Source: Candidatus Moraniibacteriota bacterium
GTDB taxonomy: Bacteria; Patescibacteriota; Minisyncoccia; Moranbacterales; GCA-2747515
NCBI GenBank assembly: GCA_027039165.1
Contig: JALWEZ010000075.1
Span: 1-15,240, forward strand
Length of the DNA: 15,240 nt
Direction: 5' to 3'
Program-made: the position numbers and the translations under genes
The notes under the pieces: model-generated
The model's database searches: none
Seen by the model: the letters and a program-made list of their open reading frames with translations, nothing else
Told to the model about the DNA's origin: nothing
Shown here: piece after piece, positions 2,631 to 10,148 of the stretch
Layout: the number at the start of each line of letters is the position of its first letter
Position numbering within the stretch: the stretch's first letter is position 1

Positions 2631-3602
2631 ATGAAAAAGATAATCTTTATTTACATATGCTTATTGTTTGCTTTAAATTTTGGCATAAATAATTCGTATG
2701 CGAGTGAGGGGGATGTTTGGCTGGTTCCAAATAATATTTCTAATATGACACCGTCAAAAACATTTGACGTGGAGTTACATGCTGATACTGGAGGTAAAAA
2801 TATTGGAGCATTTAATATGTTTTTAGATTTTGATTCTAATCATATAACAGTAGATACTTCACAAGGTAATGATGGTATTAGTGTTGGAGGTAATACTCAA
2901 AACTATATGATTCTTGCAAATCCTAATGATTTACAAAACGGTCATTATAGATTTGCAGGTATATCTGCTACAAGTTTAGCAAATGGAAACGATGTTACTT
3001 TAGCAATTATTCACCTCAAATCAACTCAAACATTTACAGCAGGGGAAACTGATTTACATCTAAGAATAAATGAATTAGCGGATGAGTTAGGAAATGCATT
3101 ATCGGCTGGAAGTATAACAGGAACAAAAATAACCTCAGAAAATGAATTAACTCCAATATACAGATTATTCAACAAAAGAACTGGTGTGCATTTGTACACA
3201 AGAGGCGAAGCAGATAGAGACAAAATTTTAGCTAAATGGAGTGATTTTGAATTTACAGATAATGCACCAGCTTTTTATGCTAGTCTCATAGATGATGGAA
3301 CTACTCCAATATACAGATTATTCAACAAAAGAACTGGTGTGCATTTGTACACAAGAGGCGAAGCAGATAGAAACAAAATTTTAGCTAAATGGAGTGATTT
3401 TGAATTCACAGATAATGCACCAGCGTTTTATGCTAGTCTTGTTCAAAAATCCGGATTAACTCCAATATACAGATTATTCAACAAAAGAACTGGTGTGCAT
3501 TTGTACACAAGAGGCGAAGCAGATAGAGACAAAATTTTAGCTAAATGGAGTGATTTTGAATTTACAGATAATGCACCAGCTTTTTGGATGAAAGTCGAAT
3601 AA
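2631..3602 (+). CDS. Secreted protein: cohesin-like domain plus three DUF5648-like repeats
   Basis: This encodes 323 residues. A signal peptide (residues 1-24: basic MKK, hydrophobic core, probable cleavage after SYA) sends it across the membrane. Residues about 30-165 look like a cohesin-type beta sandwich: TFDVELHADTGGKNIGAFNM, then FLDFDSNHITVD, then HYRFAGISA and a Gly/Ser-rich end. Cohesins bind dockerins or glycans in other bacteria. Residues 174-323 are three copies of a 46-residue unit (TPIYRLFNKRTGVHLYT...EFTDNAPAFYASL). They resemble DUF5648 (Pfam PF18885), a repeat found in surface proteins. No sorting motif or C-terminal membrane anchor is seen. A 4-codon upstream frame (2617-2631) ends overlapping the ATG. 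A role in surface attachment or carbohydrate binding is inference. Confidence 0.8.
   Translation: MKKIIFIYICLLFALNFGINNSYASEGDVWLVPNNISNMTPSKTFDVELHADTGGKNIGAFNMFLDFDSNHITVDTSQGNDGISVGGNTQNYMILANPNDLQNGHYRFAGISATSLANGNDVTLAIIHLKSTQTFTAGETDLHLRINELADELGNALSAGSITGTKITSENELTPIYRLFNKRTGVHLYTRGEADRDKILAKWSDFEFTDNAPAFYASLIDDGTTPIYRLFNKRTGVHLYTRGEADRNKILAKWSDFEFTDNAPAFYASLVQKSGLTPIYRLFNKRTGVHLYTRGEADRDKILAKWSDFEFTDNAPAFWMKVE
3150..3585 (+). repeat. Three near-identical in-frame tandem repeats
   Basis: Units start at 3150, 3303 and 3459, with periods of 153 and 156 nt. Units 1 and 3 are identical over 127 nt. Unit 2 differs at three positions, only one of which changes an amino acid (D to N). The linkers between units differ in sequence and length. 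This points to recent duplication or ongoing conversion within the secreted-protein gene. Confidence 0.95.
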
Positions 3603-3745: not shown

Positions 3746-4750
3746 ATGACATTAGAGGAAAGACAAAAAAATATAAAGAGAGCAGAGTTGCATACTCACT
3801 TGGGTTCATCAGTTGCTCCCTCATCTCTTTGGGCAATAGCTCACGATGAGGGAATTCGTCTTCCTATGAAAAATTATTGGGAATTTGCAGATATGATTAC
3901 AATGGCAAAAGGTAAGAAAAATGCGACTTTGAATGAGATGCATAATAATTTTTTTCAGTGGACGGAGCTTATTCAGAGTTCACCGAATGCTGTATATCAA
4001 TCAGTAAGAAGTGTGATTAGCGGAGGGTATAGAAAGTGTAATTTAGTTCTTCAGGAACTAAGATTTAATCCAATGTTTAGGAATAGACAAGGAGAGAGGG
4101 ATTTAGACCACATTATAACAGCAGCAATTCATGGAATGGAAAAAGCAATGCTTGATTATCCTCAAGTAAAAGCAGGTCTTATAGTTATGATGGATAGAAC
4201 TTTGACTTTTGAACAAAATGAAATAATTCTAAAAAAAGCTATTAAATATAAAAATAGAGGTGTAATAGGAATAGATGTAGCAGGACCTCAGTCCAGTGAG
4301 TTTTCTATGGAAGAAACTTCTATTCTTTTTGAAAAAGCTCGTCAAGCTGGATTGGGAATAACTATTCACACTGGAGAAGAGGGAAGTTTGGAAGAATTGG
4401 ATTATGTGGTGCATAAAATAAAACCAGATAGAATTGGACATGGAATTTTGGCTGTAAAAGATGAAAACATTATGAAAGGATTGGTGGAAAATGATATAAC
4501 TCTTGAAATCTGCCCAACTTCAAATTTGCTAAACAGTAAAGTGACTACTGTAGATGAGTTGCGAAATATAATAAGAACTCTTTTTGACTTTGGTGTAAAG
4601 ATAACGATTAATACAGATGGTCCAGAAATGTACAAAACTAATGTAATGAAAGAAGAAGACTTTTTGCTAGAAAACAATATCCTAAAAGAAGAAGAGCTAG
4701 AAATATGCAGAAAAAACGCCTTCAAAGCTTCTTTTGTGCGAGAGGTTTAG
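3746..4750 (+). CDS. Adenosine deaminase family metal-dependent hydrolase
   Basis: This encodes 334 residues of the TIM-barrel adenosine/AMP deaminase family, which hydrolytically deaminates purine nucleosides in the cytoplasm. Zinc-binding and catalytic residues are in order: H16 and H18 (AELHTHLGSS), H208 and E211 (ITIHTGEEGS), H232 (DRIGHGI), then LEICPTSNLLNSK (254-266), then D291 (TINTDGPEM). Spacing matches mouse adenosine deaminase (H15, H17, H214, E217, H238, D295). The second aspartate of the usual TDDP, which contacts the purine N7, is Gly here (G292). Substrate preference may therefore differ; a salvage, aminodeoxyfutalosine-like or modified-base role is possible. I chose ATG 3746 because the GTG 30 nt upstream would overlap the terminator-like hairpin and add a non-conserved AT-encoded extension. 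No clear terminator separates it from the convergent helicase gene. Confidence 0.85.
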   Translation: MTLEERQKNIKRAELHTHLGSSVAPSSLWAIAHDEGIRLPMKNYWEFADMITMAKGKKNATLNEMHNNFFQWTELIQSSPNAVYQSVRSVISGGYRKCNLVLQELRFNPMFRNRQGERDLDHIITAAIHGMEKAMLDYPQVKAGLIVMMDRTLTFEQNEIILKKAIKYKNRGVIGIDVAGPQSSEFSMEETSILFEKARQAGLGITIHTGEEGSLEELDYVVHKIKPDRIGHGILAVKDENIMKGLVENDITLEICPTSNLLNSKVTTVDELRNIIRTLFDFGVKITINTDGPEMYKTNVMKEEDFLLENNILKEEELEICRKNAFKASFVREV

Positions 4751-4793: not shown

Positions 4794-7700
4794 TTACTTT
4801 GATTTAATACCTAATTCATCCAATTTTTTCCACAAAGAATCTAAAGCGTCAGCACCATTTTTATAAAATGCACTTCCAGATAATCTCCAAAATACCCAGC
4901 CAGCTCTTTCTAATATTTGTTGTCGTTCTATATCTTCCTGCCAAGCCTCAATTCTATTGTGATACTTATCTCCATCACACTCAATAGCTAATTTTGCGTT
5001 TTCACCCTGAACAACAAGGTCAATTCTATATCCAGCAACTTCGTATTGTGGAATAACTTTATATCCAGACTCTATAATTATTTTTGCTACTTCATATTCA
5101 AATTCGGAGGCTCTACCTCTCTCCACTCCTTCCTTTACAGCTTGTAAACCAGCTTTCCTTTCTTCTGTTTTGCGATTATAGAACCAATCTAAAATCTTTT
5201 TTCTTAAATCATCTTGGTTTGATAATTTGTCTTTAGGAATGGAATGGAACAAAACCATCTTGTTTTTCGCACGAGACATTGCAACATTTATTCGTTGTTT
5301 ATTCTCCTTTTTATTTATTGAATATGGCGTAATATTTTTATCTGGGTTGTGTAAATCTGGTGCCTTAACCATTGACAGCAAAATGACATCCCTCTCATCT
5401 CCTTGAAAAGTATATGAATCTCCACAAACAATTTTTCTTTTTTCAATTTCTTTTGATGATATATTTTCACTAATCAGTTTTGTTATATATTTTTGTTGGT
5501 CTTTACCTAACAAAGATATAACACCAAATGTTATTGGTCTTATTTCTCCTTCTTCGTCTGTCTCTTCATATCTATCATCTTTTAACATTTCTTGCAGTTT
5601 TTCTACAAGAGCTTCAGCTTCTGGTTTATTTATCTTTCCGCTTGTTTCCTCAAAACCATTTTCTACAAATACAGTTTCTAGAACTGGCTCTAATCTATAT
5701 TTAGGTAATTGGTCCCGCAAGATTTTCAAGCTACCTTTATAAGACAATGAATTGCTAAAACCTATAATTTCTTCAATAGATCTAAAGTGTTCAGTAAGTG
5801 TTATCATTTCAGTCATTTTAATTTTTGCTATATCAAAAAGACTAGATGTGTTTGAAAAATGATGACTATTAGGCACATCAGCAATATAGCGTGTAATTAA
5901 GTCCGTAACTTTACTTTGTGTTGTAAAAGAAGTAGGGCTAACCTGTTCATCATCACCGACAACTAATAACTTTTCTCCTATGTATGCAATATTTAATCCT
6001 CGTGTATCAACCTGACTAGCTTCATCAAAAATTACAACATCAAACATGCCTGCTCTCGGATCTGGGAAAAGTTGGTGTACGGTATTTACTGGCATTATCC
6101 ATACAGGCACAGCGTCAGCGCCTATTTTTAGAGACTCTTTTGCGTCTTTTAGGTGTTTAGGGGCGTATTTGCCAAGCCCTTTGCCATATTTTTTCATACT
6201 TAATGCAAATGAAGCCAACGCCTCCTTTTGTTTTTTAGTAACCCTTTTCTTTAAATGTATCCAAGCTGAAATTTGCACTAATTCTCTAACAACATCTCTC
6301 TCCTTGTTTTTCAAGATAGATAAGTCTTTGCTTATTTTAGAAAGGGAATCACCACTATGTAATTTATCCAACCAACTTATTAATCTTTTCCACTTCCAGT
6401 TCTTCTCTATATCAAATTCAATATTTTCTCCATTTTTTACGGAAAGTCTTATCTTCGAAATTGTTTTCTGCAGCTTTTTTCCTATCTCATCTTCAACCAA
6501 TTTTATTTGTTTTGCTTTATTTTGGCTATCAATTAAATCTGGAATTTCTGCATAAAACGATTTGATATATTCAAGATCACCAGTCTCTATACTTTGTAAA
6601 TAAGTAATAACTTTTTTATGATTGTTTTTATTTTTCTTTAACTGCTTGATAGTATCATTGTAAACTTCTTCGTAAAATTTATTATATTCAACAGATACTT
6701 CTCTTGTTTTTAAAATAGACAAAATTTCTTCTTTTAGATCGTCAATTTCATCAATTTTAATTTCTTTTATTTTTTTGGCAAGTTTAAGTACTTTTTCGTG
6801 TGCGCTTTTTTTTTCAAAATCTTTGGAAATATTTGTTATAAGTTTTTTGTATTCATCAACTTTAAAATAAGACAAATACCCATCAAATACTTCCAGCGCC
6901 TTTTCTACGAAAGAAATACTTCTTATATCAATATCTTTGAACAATTTATAATTTTCCAAAGATTTTTTGACGCCAATGTAGTTATTTTCAAAATTAACAA
7001 TTCGTTTTATATGAGCAAATAACTCTTCAAACTCAACAATATTAAATGGCTCTGGGAATTCTTTTTTATTTCTTAGGTTCTCAAATGCTTGTCCCCAGAT
7101 ATTTTTTAATTCTTCTGCAATCTTTTCTTTTGTAAAGTATGCTTCTACTAATTCAAGATCTTTAATCGTCTCAATTTCTTTGTTATTGATTTTTACATTT
7201 TTTATAAATTTCTTTGTAGAAAAATCAAATAATATACTTACGCCTTTTTTGATTTTTTCTTCATCACCTGAACGTTCTTTAATTTTTGAAATGATTTCAA
7301 GTGTAGAAATATAATCTATCTCATAATCGGACATGAGATCAACTTTATTTCCAATCAGTTTCTTGTGAGCGTTATTAAATTGATTGATTAGATTATCTAT
7401 TTTTTCTACTGTATCGTGCCATATACTTGCATGATTATTATTACTTAGAGTTTTAAATAATTCTTTTTCATATTCTTCATCAAATGAAATAAGGACTTTC
7501 TTTATTAATTTAAGTTCTTCAATTAATTTATCAATATCAGTCCTTTTCTCCTTATTGAAAAAATCCGATTCTGATATTTCATTTTTTTGAAAGAAATCAA
7601 CATCTTTTAACCTCTTTTTAAATTTTTCTGCTTTTTCTTTAAATAAGAAAAATTTCTTTATGTCTTCCTTGATCTCATCTAATCTCTCAAGTTCTTCTCT

Positions 7701-9683
7701 TGCTGGTATAAAGAATTTGAATAGTTCTCTTTCTTTCTTATCTAAACTATCTCTGATTTTGAAATATTTTTTTAACACTTCTATTTGTGGCAATTTTTCA
7801 ATTTCTGGTACTTGATCCAGGTTTATAAAGTCCCATACGTCACTATTTGATGACTCTAATGCAGATATGTAATCATTAATCTGACGTTGTGAAATTGAGA
7901 GTTCGTCATCATACTTGATATCATCAAGCATTTTGAATTCATCTGACATTTGAAATTCGGCACAGAATTTTACTGCAGATATTGGAGTAAACTTTTCTGA
8001 GTCGATAGTGATTACTTCCCTTGAATCAATTAATGATTTGCTTTCAAATTCATTGTTTTTCTTAGCTATTTGTTCTCTGATTTCTTGCAACTCTTTTTCT
8101 TTTTTCTTTTTCTTGTCTGGTGTGAATTTTACTTTATCTGATAGTGTTGCATTAATTTCTGATACTGCTGATTGTAAATCATTATTTCTTGAAGCAGACT
8201 CAACTTGAGAAACAGCAAGACTCCTAATCTCTTTTGGTATTTTGTTTTTTAATACTGATAGTGCCTGCCCGGTTTGTGAAGTAACGAGAACAGTTTTTCC
8301 TTGCGCAAGAAATCTTGATATTAAGTTTGCAATCGTATGGGTCTTTCCTGTACCTGGGGGACCCTGAACAACAGAGCCGTAATTTGTGTCCATTTGAACC
8401 GCTATCCTTTTTTGTTCTTCGTTATAAGGTAGCGGAAAATATAATTCACTATCTGGTATTTTTCCACTCTTTGCCACTTCGTTATTCTCATCATCTTGTT
8501 TGTCATTATCAGATAAAGCCCCGTCTTCTGTTACAAGATCGGACAGAAATGGTGTTAGTTTTTCATTATTTTTTATATCTTCTTGTATCTTTTTTGCATA
8601 TTCAACCCATGTTTTTCCGCTTTTCTTTAGCAGGAGTAGGTGGTGAATATTAAAAGAAATTGGTTTATTTGTAATTTTTAGCTCTTGGTCTCTTTTATCA
8701 TATTTTGACTCTCCGTCAGGAGTTATATAACGCACTAATTGTTGCATGTAGCGATGTATCATCTTAAAATCCCATACATCAAAATCAGCTTCTTGTATTT
8801 TTTTATTTATCCTTTCTGCTAATTCATCAATATCAGGTAAATTTTGATTATTCTCATCAATAACCTCTCTCACAAAAGAAACATCAAAAAATGTTTTTGA
8901 ATTGATATTCGGTTTTATAGAAATTATGTTCCTATTAGAATCAAAATCAATTTCAACAGGCGTAAAAAGTGTCGGATGATATATTTCTGTATTTCCTTGT
9001 TTCCAGGTCAAAATATCATGACTCCAAAGCAGGTCATAACTATCAGATTCAGTTTTTAGAAATGATCTTAGTGCGTATAATTTATCATAAGCTTGGTTGG
9101 CAATATGGTATTGTATATTTTTATCTCGCCACGGTTTCCATTTTGACTCAAGCCAATTATCAAACAAGGTTTGTAATTCTGGATAATCTTTAAAATGTAA
9201 GTCGATCTCTCTTTCGGTGATTTTCTCATACTCACCTGTATTGGGGTTTTTTGTAACCCAGCCCTGTAAGATCGAACCAATACGAGATGAGTCGTTCAAT
9301 TTATTAAATGTCTCAATGCGTTTTTTGTCATCGTCAAAGTATTCTGTTTTGTAAATAGTTTCTTTCGGCTCTGGTTTAACAAAACCAACCATTTCAATAT
9401 CAACCCACGCAGACAATTCTTTCGGTAACTTTGGTGGATTAGATATTTTGTATCGCTCTATATGTAAATAAACTCCATCATATTTTTCTTTGTCCAAAGA
9501 TTCATCAGCCCTATTTCTCAAAAAGATTTTATCAAGATTGGGTAAAAAATCTTCATTTTCTAAATCTATCTTTTCTTCTTCTCCGTTTAATTTTTTAATA
9601 CTTTTCCTAACATTGATATTAAGCAAAGATAGTTGTTCTAAATATTTGAACAATCTTACTCCATTTGATTTTGATTTTTCCAT
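4794..9683 (-). CDS. Large superfamily 1 (Upf1/Dna2-like) helicase with C-terminal Vsr/MTES_1575-like nuclease
   Basis: This encodes 1629 residues. Helicase motifs in order: Q-like LPYNEEQKRIA (418-428), Walker A GPPGTGKT (441-448), motif Ia VLVTSQTGQAL (465-475), Walker B VVIFDEASQV (1216-1225), motif III LLVVGDDEQVSP (1239-1250), LTEHFRS (1296-1302), motif V YTFQGDERDVILL (1424-1436) and motif VI NVAMSRAKNKMVLF (1466-1479). About 660 residues, Lys/Glu-rich and largely helical or coiled-coil, are inserted between motifs Ia and II. Residues 1527-1629 form a nuclease-like fold with RIDLVV (D1555) and AIECDGDKYH (E1568, D1570), as in PD-(D/E)XK/Vsr-type DUF559 or MTES_1575 domains. The N-terminal 400 residues are not assigned. 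The set suggests ATP-driven movement on nucleic acid coupled to cleavage. Similar helicase-nuclease proteins occur in phage-defence loci. It stands alone, without methylase or partner. The ATG lacks a Shine-Dalgarno. Confidence 0.88.
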   Translation of the reverse strand: MEKSKSNGVRLFKYLEQLSLLNINVRKSIKKLNGEEEKIDLENEDFLPNLDKIFLRNRADESLDKEKYDGVYLHIERYKISNPPKLPKELSAWVDIEMVGFVKPEPKETIYKTEYFDDDKKRIETFNKLNDSSRIGSILQGWVTKNPNTGEYEKITEREIDLHFKDYPELQTLFDNWLESKWKPWRDKNIQYHIANQAYDKLYALRSFLKTESDSYDLLWSHDILTWKQGNTEIYHPTLFTPVEIDFDSNRNIISIKPNINSKTFFDVSFVREVIDENNQNLPDIDELAERINKKIQEADFDVWDFKMIHRYMQQLVRYITPDGESKYDKRDQELKITNKPISFNIHHLLLLKKSGKTWVEYAKKIQEDIKNNEKLTPFLSDLVTEDGALSDNDKQDDENNEVAKSGKIPDSELYFPLPYNEEQKRIAVQMDTNYGSVVQGPPGTGKTHTIANLISRFLAQGKTVLVTSQTGQALSVLKNKIPKEIRSLAVSQVESASRNNDLQSAVSEINATLSDKVKFTPDKKKKKEKELQEIREQIAKKNNEFESKSLIDSREVITIDSEKFTPISAVKFCAEFQMSDEFKMLDDIKYDDELSISQRQINDYISALESSNSDVWDFINLDQVPEIEKLPQIEVLKKYFKIRDSLDKKERELFKFFIPAREELERLDEIKEDIKKFFLFKEKAEKFKKRLKDVDFFQKNEISESDFFNKEKRTDIDKLIEELKLIKKVLISFDEEYEKELFKTLSNNNHASIWHDTVEKIDNLINQFNNAHKKLIGNKVDLMSDYEIDYISTLEIISKIKERSGDEEKIKKGVSILFDFSTKKFIKNVKINNKEIETIKDLELVEAYFTKEKIAEELKNIWGQAFENLRNKKEFPEPFNIVEFEELFAHIKRIVNFENNYIGVKKSLENYKLFKDIDIRSISFVEKALEVFDGYLSYFKVDEYKKLITNISKDFEKKSAHEKVLKLAKKIKEIKIDEIDDLKEEILSILKTREVSVEYNKFYEEVYNDTIKQLKKNKNNHKKVITYLQSIETGDLEYIKSFYAEIPDLIDSQNKAKQIKLVEDEIGKKLQKTISKIRLSVKNGENIEFDIEKNWKWKRLISWLDKLHSGDSLSKISKDLSILKNKERDVVRELVQISAWIHLKKRVTKKQKEALASFALSMKKYGKGLGKYAPKHLKDAKESLKIGADAVPVWIMPVNTVHQLFPDPRAGMFDVVIFDEASQVDTRGLNIAYIGEKLLVVGDDEQVSPTSFTTQSKVTDLITRYIADVPNSHHFSNTSSLFDIAKIKMTEMITLTEHFRSIEEIIGFSNSLSYKGSLKILRDQLPKYRLEPVLETVFVENGFEETSGKINKPEAEALVEKLQEMLKDDRYEETDEEGEIRPITFGVISLLGKDQQKYITKLISENISSKEIEKRKIVCGDSYTFQGDERDVILLSMVKAPDLHNPDKNITPYSINKKENKQRINVAMSRAKNKMVLFHSIPKDKLSNQDDLRKKILDWFYNRKTEERKAGLQAVKEGVERGRASEFEYEVAKIIIESGYKVIPQYEVAGYRIDLVVQGENAKLAIECDGDKYHNRIEAWQEDIERQQILERAGWVFWRLSGSAFYKNGADALDSLWKKLDELGIKSK

Positions 9684-9792: not shown

Positions 9793-9821
9793 AAAAAACA
9801 AGGTGTATTTGACCTCGTTTT
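9793..9821 (-). terminator. Intrinsic terminator of tRNA-Ser
   Basis: On the minus strand AACGAGGT pairs with ACCTTGTT (one G-U) around a 7-nt loop and is followed by a run of T. It begins 8 nt past the tRNA 3' end and isolates the tRNA from the helicase gene. Confidence 0.75.
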
Positions 9822-9827
9822 AATCTG

Positions 9828-9914
9828 AGGAGAGAAAGGGATTCGAACCCTCGAGCCCCGTGAGGGACTAACACCTTAGCAGGGTGTCCTATTCAACCAC
9901 TCTAGCATCTCTCC
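9828..9914 (-). tRNA. tRNA-Ser(GCT)
   Basis: This is an 87-nt class II tRNA. The acceptor is GGAGAGA/TCTCTCC, the D stem has 3 bp, and the anticodon stem ACACC/GGTGT closes loop CTGCTAA, giving anticodon GCT for AGC/AGU codons. A 5-bp variable arm (GTCCC/GGGGC) and T arm GAGGG/CCCTT with loop TTCGAAT complete it. The long variable arm fits serine. The discriminator base is U, whereas bacterial tRNA-Ser normally has G73; this is odd. CCA is not encoded. A terminator follows and a weak promoter precedes. Confidence 0.95.
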
Positions 9915-9953: not shown

Positions 9954-10148
9954 CCTTTGCCTTAGTAACTATTCAGGTTTTTCCAGTACATTTTAAAAAA
10001 TGCTTTAAATAAAGAGTTTAAAAAAATGTCAAATACTTTTTATAAATTTTAAAATACCGTAATTAAAGCGTTTTTGGGATTTTCTTAGATAAACGTGAAT
10101 AATTACTTGCCTTAAATTTGATTTAAACTGTATTTAATGATGTAAAAC
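9954..10148. other. AT-rich intergenic stretch without recognised features
   Basis: It separates the divergent tRNA-Ser and dihydrofolate reductase operon. Frames are stop-rich. Short A/T runs form only weak hairpins. No RNA gene, repeat or operator stands out. Confidence 0.5.

Follow-up and report, generated by a model that had tools for sequence, protein, structure and literature searches.

A 15,240-nucleotide stretch of contig JALWEZ010000075.1 from a Candidatus Moraniibacteriota bacterium (hereafter the window) carries an intact gene for a 1629-residue helicase-nuclease. Judging from its motifs and predicted model, the protein is a UPF1/Dna2-like superfamily 1B (SF1B) helicase core fused to a C-terminal Vsr-like nuclease with conserved acidic and histidine residues, and we consider that it probably acts as a partner-free, single-protein, ATP-dependent DNA-degrading defence enzyme, in which an N-terminal region and a long helical insert would sense or gate. 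We infer the defence role, which is plausible from the patchy distribution of the gene and from the neighbours of its distant homologues; the models nearest to it, those of PDC-S37, Hhe and ProA, all stand for defence systems.

Domain architecture of the helicase-nuclease

The open reading frame (ORF) lies at window positions 4794–9683 on the minus strand, with an ATG start and 1629 intact codons, exactly where the original prediction had placed it, and matches only itself in the source genome (1,151,606 bases in 265 contigs). Where the listed matches of the neighbouring gatB are named, they come from Candidatus Moranbacteria (Moraniibacteriota), Parcubacteria and Patescibacteria, which makes a Moranbacterium the most likely host. 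The features of the gene and its upstream flank are as follows.

4794..9683, minus strand: helicase-nuclease gene, 1629 residues, intact, single-gene unit by orientation (ORF, Pfam, homologues)
8529..9683, minus strand: N-terminal alpha/beta region, residues 1–385, candidate sensor or DNA-binding part (model, profiles)
8049..8450, minus strand: SF1B helicase core, first part, with Q motif, motif I (GPPGTGKT) and motif Ia, residues 412–545 (Pfam, motifs, conservation)
6114..8048, minus strand: long all-helical insert between motifs Ia and II, residues 546–1190 (model secondary structure)
5169..6113, minus strand: remainder of the helicase core, with motifs II (DEASQ), III (GDDEQ) and IV–VI, residues 1191–1505 (AAA_12, fold)
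4812..5108, minus strand: Vsr-like PD-(D/E)XK nuclease domain (MTES_1575 family), residues 1526–1624
9795..9821, minus strand: terminator-like hairpin in the interval between tRNA-Ser and the gene (weak; 4 sites against 5.0 expected)
9827..9914, minus strand: tRNA-Ser(GCT), upstream of the helicase-nuclease gene

The helicase motifs follow the order of SF1B UPF1-like helicases, with Walker A (GPPGTGK, residues 441–447), DEASQ (1220–1224), GDDEQ (1243–1247), EHFR (1298–1301), FQGDERD (1426–1432) and NVAMSR (1466–1471), and the nuclease motif ECDGDKYH stands at 1568–1575. Pfam places AAA_30, AAA_19 and AAA_11 inside residues 420–575, AAA_12 at 1281–1478 and the MTES_1575 restriction endonuclease (REase) domain (PF18741) at 1528–1621, the last scoring 109.2 bits (cut-off 38.2). 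Among the matches listed, the 115 homologues of at least 1450 residues all keep the Walker A, Walker B, III and VI patterns, while ECDG..[YWF]H is kept in 114 and [RK]ID[LIV]V in 108. Motifs, Pfam domains and conservation thus confirm the full SF1 motif set and ECDG-type nuclease originally read from the sequence. The core fold is UPF1/IGHMBP2/Sen1/Dna2-like, and the C-terminal domain has a Vsr-like PD-(D/E)XK fold with conserved active-site positions; a C-terminal fold without a nuclease site, raised beforehand as an objection to a defence role, was not what we found.

One part that the original prediction counted as helicase needs correcting: in the predicted model, residues ~546–1190 form an all-helical insert of ~640 residues between motifs Ia and II. 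Mean identity over 546–1130 is 0.28–0.29, the lowest in the protein except for a linker at 386–411 (0.15), and rises to 0.58 in the final 60 residues of the insert.

The N-terminal region (residues 1–385) has no Pfam domain match, and a model of residues 1–430 (predicted local distance difference test, pLDDT, 81; predicted template-modelling score, pTM, 0.68) returned no matches in either PDB or BFVD at E ≤ 1e-3. Profile comparison, on the other hand, suggests that the region is family-specific and common to members from Bacillota, Pseudomonadota, Actinomycetota and Patescibacteria. A profile of 54 close relatives aligned with one of 47 more distant listed members at Prob 100 over 411 columns, and matched N-termini from genome loci at Prob 100 in Bacillota (15 loci), 99.5 in Pseudomonadota (18) and 99.4 in Actinomycetota (15), 48 of the 49 chosen loci being usable, as one of 19 in Pseudomonadota yielded no N-terminus. 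Against a profile of 108 DUF4011-type N-termini, hhalign gave Prob 0.4, compared with 100 for the within-family control, and the DUF4011-type N-terminus scored 1.3, 0.3 and 0.5 against the Bacillota, Pseudomonadota and Actinomycetota sets. In plain tblastn searches, the match started before residue 400 at 62 of 80 genome loci.

Family, distribution and locus

Homologues of the protein at E ≤ 1e-3 number 1499 (7993 scored), a count that places the family far beyond chance; the best is 89% identical across the whole length. Among the 120 matches listed, 115 are at least 1450 residues long (median 1607), and none carries DUF4011 (PF13195) or DUF3320 (PF11784) in its precomputed domains, whereas 114 of the 120 listed matches of a Patescibacteria DUF4011-type protein carry both, by our count. 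In a tree of the catalytic part, drawn from these two lists of 120, 34 proteins without DUF4011 are split from 30 of the DUF4011 type by a branch with a Shimodaira–Hasegawa-like approximate likelihood ratio test (SH-aLRT) support of 99. This is a quick tree with long-branch warnings, which holds DUF4011-type proteins and leaves out reference Hhe, ProA and PDC-S37 proteins; one member on the DUF4011 side (P0269) is a fragment with no precomputed DUF4011.

A second tree, made with fasttree from 108 loci (three, L006, L093 and L095, lacked a usable C-terminal match, and L065, with 14 residues, was dropped), has 105 rows and groups the window protein with the Patescibacteria members L005, L151, L185 and L184 (support 99), inside a 92-row family under 15 phylum labels. 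Label changes on this tree number seven for Bacillota, six for Pseudomonadota and three for Actinomycetota, which alone is no proof of transfer. Since L152 and L023, also from Patescibacteria, fall in other parts of the family, apart from the window clade, Patescibacteria may have gained the gene more than once; single placements, such as those of L007 and L020, are unsure because bins can contain foreign contigs. A same-genus genome (G001) encodes a different, 994-residue SF1 helicase (L150:8587-11571) with a Vsr-like nuclease end by inspection and two small ORFs upstream (118 and 156 residues), which falls outside the family of the window protein on the tree.

The distribution of the helicase-nuclease is patchy and accessory. 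Within the order, three of 128 genomes match at 1e-20, and the full-length type is present in one, the window's own; the other two have open frames of 1004 and 1121 residues, which the tree places outside the family. The full-length type is missing from the 16 further genomes of the taxonomic family. In a class sample, eight of 383 genomes match at 1e-20, with G521 and G555 at 49% in the C-terminal third, and 29 of 379 genomes in a phylum sample do so at 1e-3, mostly weakly. A consistent neighbourhood with core repair genes across the phylum, which the original prediction had named as an observation that would count against it, is therefore not what these counts describe. Matches were also found in 418 plasmid records, 215 of them predicted conjugative, a mixed set that includes other helicase-nuclease types, and weakly in four of 50,697 phage records.

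Gene order in the window runs DUF389, tRNA-Arg, a DUF5648 gene, adenosine deaminase, helicase-nuclease and tRNA-Ser. Seven other tRNA-Ser(GCT) loci were inspected in the taxonomic family. In five of these, the tRNA lies at most 0.3 kb from DUF389 with no helicase-nuclease in the stretch, and in four of the five tRNA-Arg(GCG) flanks DUF389 on its far side, still inside the stretch inspected; the remaining two, in G013 and in G001 (near a contig end), have no DUF389 in the stretch inspected. In the window, DUF389 and tRNA-Ser(GCT) are pulled apart (1713–2531 and 9827–9914), with a changed arrangement about the helicase-nuclease segment. What lies between the two tRNAs looks extra, because tRNA-Ser adjoins DUF389 in relatives while the window interposes the helicase-nuclease; the window locus is itself also rearranged, so that a clean empty site cannot be drawn. 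No adenosine deaminase gene turned up in the 16 other genomes of this family, and in the one same-genus genome, by inspection, a Clp-type ATPase gene precedes DHFR and a von Willebrand-type lipoprotein gene follows tRNA-Ser. Integration borne by the tRNA was rejected, as no repeat of the tRNA-Ser end occurs among window repeats of at least 20 bases.

By orientation the gene stands alone, as originally proposed, and appears to be a single-gene transcription unit, because a convergent adenosine deaminase gene (end at 4750) lies downstream and tRNA-Ser(GCT) (9827–9914, same strand) with a hairpin (9821–9795) lies upstream. This hairpin is weak evidence, four terminator-like hairpins in the window against 5.0 expected being chance level. 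A dedicated promoter, part of the original prediction, was dropped as evidence: sigma-70-like sites number 64 in the window and 75.1 ± 8.7 in shuffles, again chance level. The claim that no methylase accompanies the gene is true of the annotated ORFs of the window but not of the genome, in which an N6_Mtase gene (N6-adenine methylase, 382 bits) lies on contig C60 (172–1086), so that the genome may hold a restriction-modification system.

Two further window elements deserve mention. Between tRNA-Ser and DHFR lies a 142-bp palindromic repeat (9965–10106) with ends GTAAC...ATTAC, flanked by a perfect 8-base duplication, TTGCCTTA. Copies with 73–99% identity occur on contigs C58, C226, C116 and C108 (two copies) of the same genome, the C58 copy having its own 8-base duplication, and the repeat looks, from its sequence, like a small non-autonomous transposon. 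Its ends and duplication length resemble those of IS66; contig C60 carries an IS66 transposase fragment ~125 bases from a weak 67-base match to the repeat. Separately, the gene at 2631–3602 encodes a secreted-looking protein with three ~150-base in-frame repeats in its DUF5648 region, whose 91–94% DNA identity to the first suggests recent duplication.

Genomic neighbours of homologues

To place the family in context, we surveyed neighbourhoods on plasmids and chromosomes. Nine plasmid regions were opened, of which one had no annotation, and in six of the remaining eight, defence-type genes lie within 10 kb of the homologue. Two Acinetobacter plasmids, not independent of each other, have a BREX operon directly upstream; other regions, one each, show type I restriction, AbiE, and DUF4194 with an AAA ATPase and RmuC, of which we take the first two to be a Wadjet-like pair. 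A further region contains the BPTD_3080 restriction gene, and its homologue is not of the window type, since it is annotated as a DUF3320 protein. Six plasmid homologues were scanned, those beside BREX (two), type I restriction, DUF4194 and AbiE and one from a region without recognised defence genes; all carry AAA and MTES_1575 domains, and none has DUF4011 or DUF3320 at E ≤ 0.01.

On chromosomes, up to five nearest ORFs of at least 150 residues on each side were set against ORFs from other parts of those contigs. The choice, made at 26 loci per set, comprised 249 near and 255 far ORFs; of these, 228 and 232 were scanned and represent 24 loci in each set (one per set in part), with the best 25 families kept per scan and L049 left out. 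ORF calling was length-greedy and prone to error in high-GC genomes, and at L030 a wrong long ORF replaced the gene itself. Around the 24 chromosomal members, near ORFs match CBASS cyclase, E1-E2 and JAB, Avs4, BrxC and BrxF, together with two type IV and two type I restriction matches, three PbeA and a second PDC-S37-like gene; near matches to UvrD-type helicase (GajB, LmuB), DpdF, BrxHI and dGTPase were taken for housekeeping look-alikes. Far ORFs match PD-T4-6 kinase, four mad3 ABC ATPases, DndA/SspA, mad6, RtcR and DEDDh, taken mainly for look-alikes, and also gave one weak E1-E2 match, a homing endonuclease and reverse-transcriptase/Cas1 matches. Qualitatively, the contrast between near and far favours defence islands.

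We also looked for a small partner gene. In three plasmid members a short ORF on the same strand immediately precedes the gene, and 83 loci were searched (L027, L051, L069 and L081 were dropped as off contig), with gap lengths that are rough because furthest-upstream starts were used. BLASTP at 1e-3 grouped only two pairs among 128 candidate short peptides, so no conserved upstream partner was found and this candidate was rejected. In a Patescibacteria genome, a 1523-residue relative (L152:6497-12582) is followed on the same strand after 17 bases by an RmuC gene, in a possible operon; rmuC occurs both here and near one plasmid member, and was not retained as a regular partner.

Several observations weigh against defence. 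The window, judged from annotated ORFs and Pfam, is no defence island: its neighbours are housekeeping genes, including adenosine deaminase, DHFR, nucleotide kinases, dUTPase and gatB (dut and gatB identified by inspection). Two of the eight plasmid regions contain no recognised defence gene, around one member of the window Pfam make-up and one unchecked for DUF3320, and the chromosomal contrast stays qualitative, with no significance attached, because PADLOC counts models, not genes. In the window's Patescibacteria clade, only L184, with an OLD/AriA/Gabija-like ATPase neighbour, and perhaps L151, in which a PIF1-type helicase with a WYL domain adjoins the gene, fit defence neighbours. For L005, the nearest relative whose neighbourhood was readable (identity 64% overall and 81% in the C-terminal part), the 5 kb downstream contain ligA and an amidase. 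The picture is therefore mixed, with defence neighbours seen for distant members and hardly in the window's clade, and the defence role put forward in the original prediction is plausible from the distant members and not from the locus.

Mechanism, alternatives and named systems

As a single-protein defence enzyme, the helicase-nuclease would work as follows. The motor would load on DNA ends, gaps or single-stranded DNA arising from phage or plasmid replication; the N-terminal region and helical insert would sense the substrate or a phage factor, for example SSB, holding the nuclease off until then; and the C-terminal domain would then cut the translocated DNA, so that the invader is cleared, or the cell killed if cutting is unspecific. 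Sensing and gating are assigned to the N-terminal region and the insert because of their position and conservation, and the nuclease family suggests that the substrate is DNA and not RNA. Given that no methylase or specificity subunit adjoins the gene, and by analogy with Hna, discussed below, specificity would depend on DNA structure or on a trigger protein. More tentatively, the N-terminal ~385 residues could be a new invader sensor, making, with motor, gate and nuclease, a widespread one-protein immune system that has no model of its own in the libraries searched and works even in reduced, probably episymbiotic Patescibacteria.

Of the alternatives, an accessory DNA repair or recombination helicase-nuclease, Dna2- or AddAB-like and acting on broken or stalled host DNA, is the first to weigh, and we think it unlikely. 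General repair genes are rarely so patchy, and the full-length type is confined to one of the 128 genomes of the order and absent from nearly all close relatives. No common neighbourhood was noticed among the members inspected, although no systematic test was made, and the genes found close to distant members include those of BREX, CBASS, Avs and restriction.

That the protein is simply Hhe, ProA or PDC-S37, already named systems, appears doubtful, even though these are its top models. PDC-S37 (PDLC05009), a phage-defence candidate of PADLOC-DB and the best PADLOC match, scores 212.5 bits, with no cut-off given by PADLOC, and six other proteins of the window type score 189–242 bits. Its profile aligns with the helicase and nuclease parts, but the best stretch (residues 1193–1623 to positions 918–1340 of 1550) spans the catalytic part only. 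Profile positions before 293 are uncovered in all seven proteins scanned, so the N-terminal part of PDC-S37, as far as profiles tell, probably differs from that of the window family. The name PDC-S37 was not found in the literature searched. The ProA model (NF058533) gives 226.1 bits against a cut-off of 1500 and aligns with residues 383–1624, its positions before 615 lying outside the match; literature searches gave no paper that could be tied to ProA as an anti-phage protein.

Hhe (NF042953, PDLC02194), to which the original prediction had related the protein, likewise joins a helicase and then a Vsr-like nuclease in one protein, and this part of the relation holds, the catalytic parts aligning (best stretch 1193–1625) at 145.2 bits against a 2000-bit cut-off. 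Membership was ruled out by the DUF4011 tests and the tree. The window protein lacks DUF3320 and has no Pfam match to DUF4011 at E ≤ 0.01; a PF13195 search found none in the source genome and two of 145 genomes exceeding the cut-off; the profile-profile comparison was negative; and DUF4011-type relatives lie across the branch with SH-aLRT 99. The same results support the suggestion, made at the outset, of a distinct class. Mokosh models reach 86–87 bits (best stretches 945–1480 for MkoC and 1211–1478 for MkoA; no cut-off given).

Mobile-element cargo, serving element protection (plasmid competition, exclusion) or a homing-like role suggested by the likeness of the nuclease to a homing endonuclease, is improbable, as no integrase or relaxase was seen among the window ORFs scanned or inspected, no repeat of the tRNA-Ser end was found among window repeats of at least 20 bases, and phage matches are few and weak. 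The likelihoods given here need not total one, because the named-system and cargo explanations partly overlap with the defence enzyme that we favour.

Helicase-nuclease fusions recur in bacterial immunity, and how a single protein tells self from foreign DNA without a methylase is an open question. The family offers a clean case: one gene, with an unclassified N-terminal region common from Bacillota to Patescibacteria. As DUF4011-type relatives carry a different N-terminus on a related chassis, domain removals could locate recognition. Patescibacteria are mostly inferred to be episymbionts (for example PMC13059738), and the source bacterium is probably host-dependent; such work would show what use a cell with a ~1.15-Mb genome makes of 4.9 kb.

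Among characterised systems, the closest mechanistic analogue is Hna, described in PMC13381803 as a single helicase-nuclease protein that acts by abortive infection, is auto-inhibited and is switched on by phage SSB. Like the window protein it is one partner-free helicase-nuclease, but its helicase belongs to SF2 rather than SF1B, and no homology is claimed. In its main text, a paper on BREX diversity (PMC12839542) does not mention Vsr, DUF559 or MTES, and SF1 appears only in the references. The MTES_1575 proteins, after which the nuclease domain is named, are SF1 helicases fused to a Vsr-type REase, giant proteins that also have HEPN, transglutaminase-like and wHTH (DUF3320) domains (PMC3710099); the window protein has no Pfam match to any of these three. 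No model in Pfam, NCBIfam or PADLOC appears to be specific to the window family, which is ordinary in its chassis, an SF1 helicase with a Vsr-like nuclease being an already known kind in conflict systems, on the evidence of PMC3710099 and of the Hhe and ProA models.
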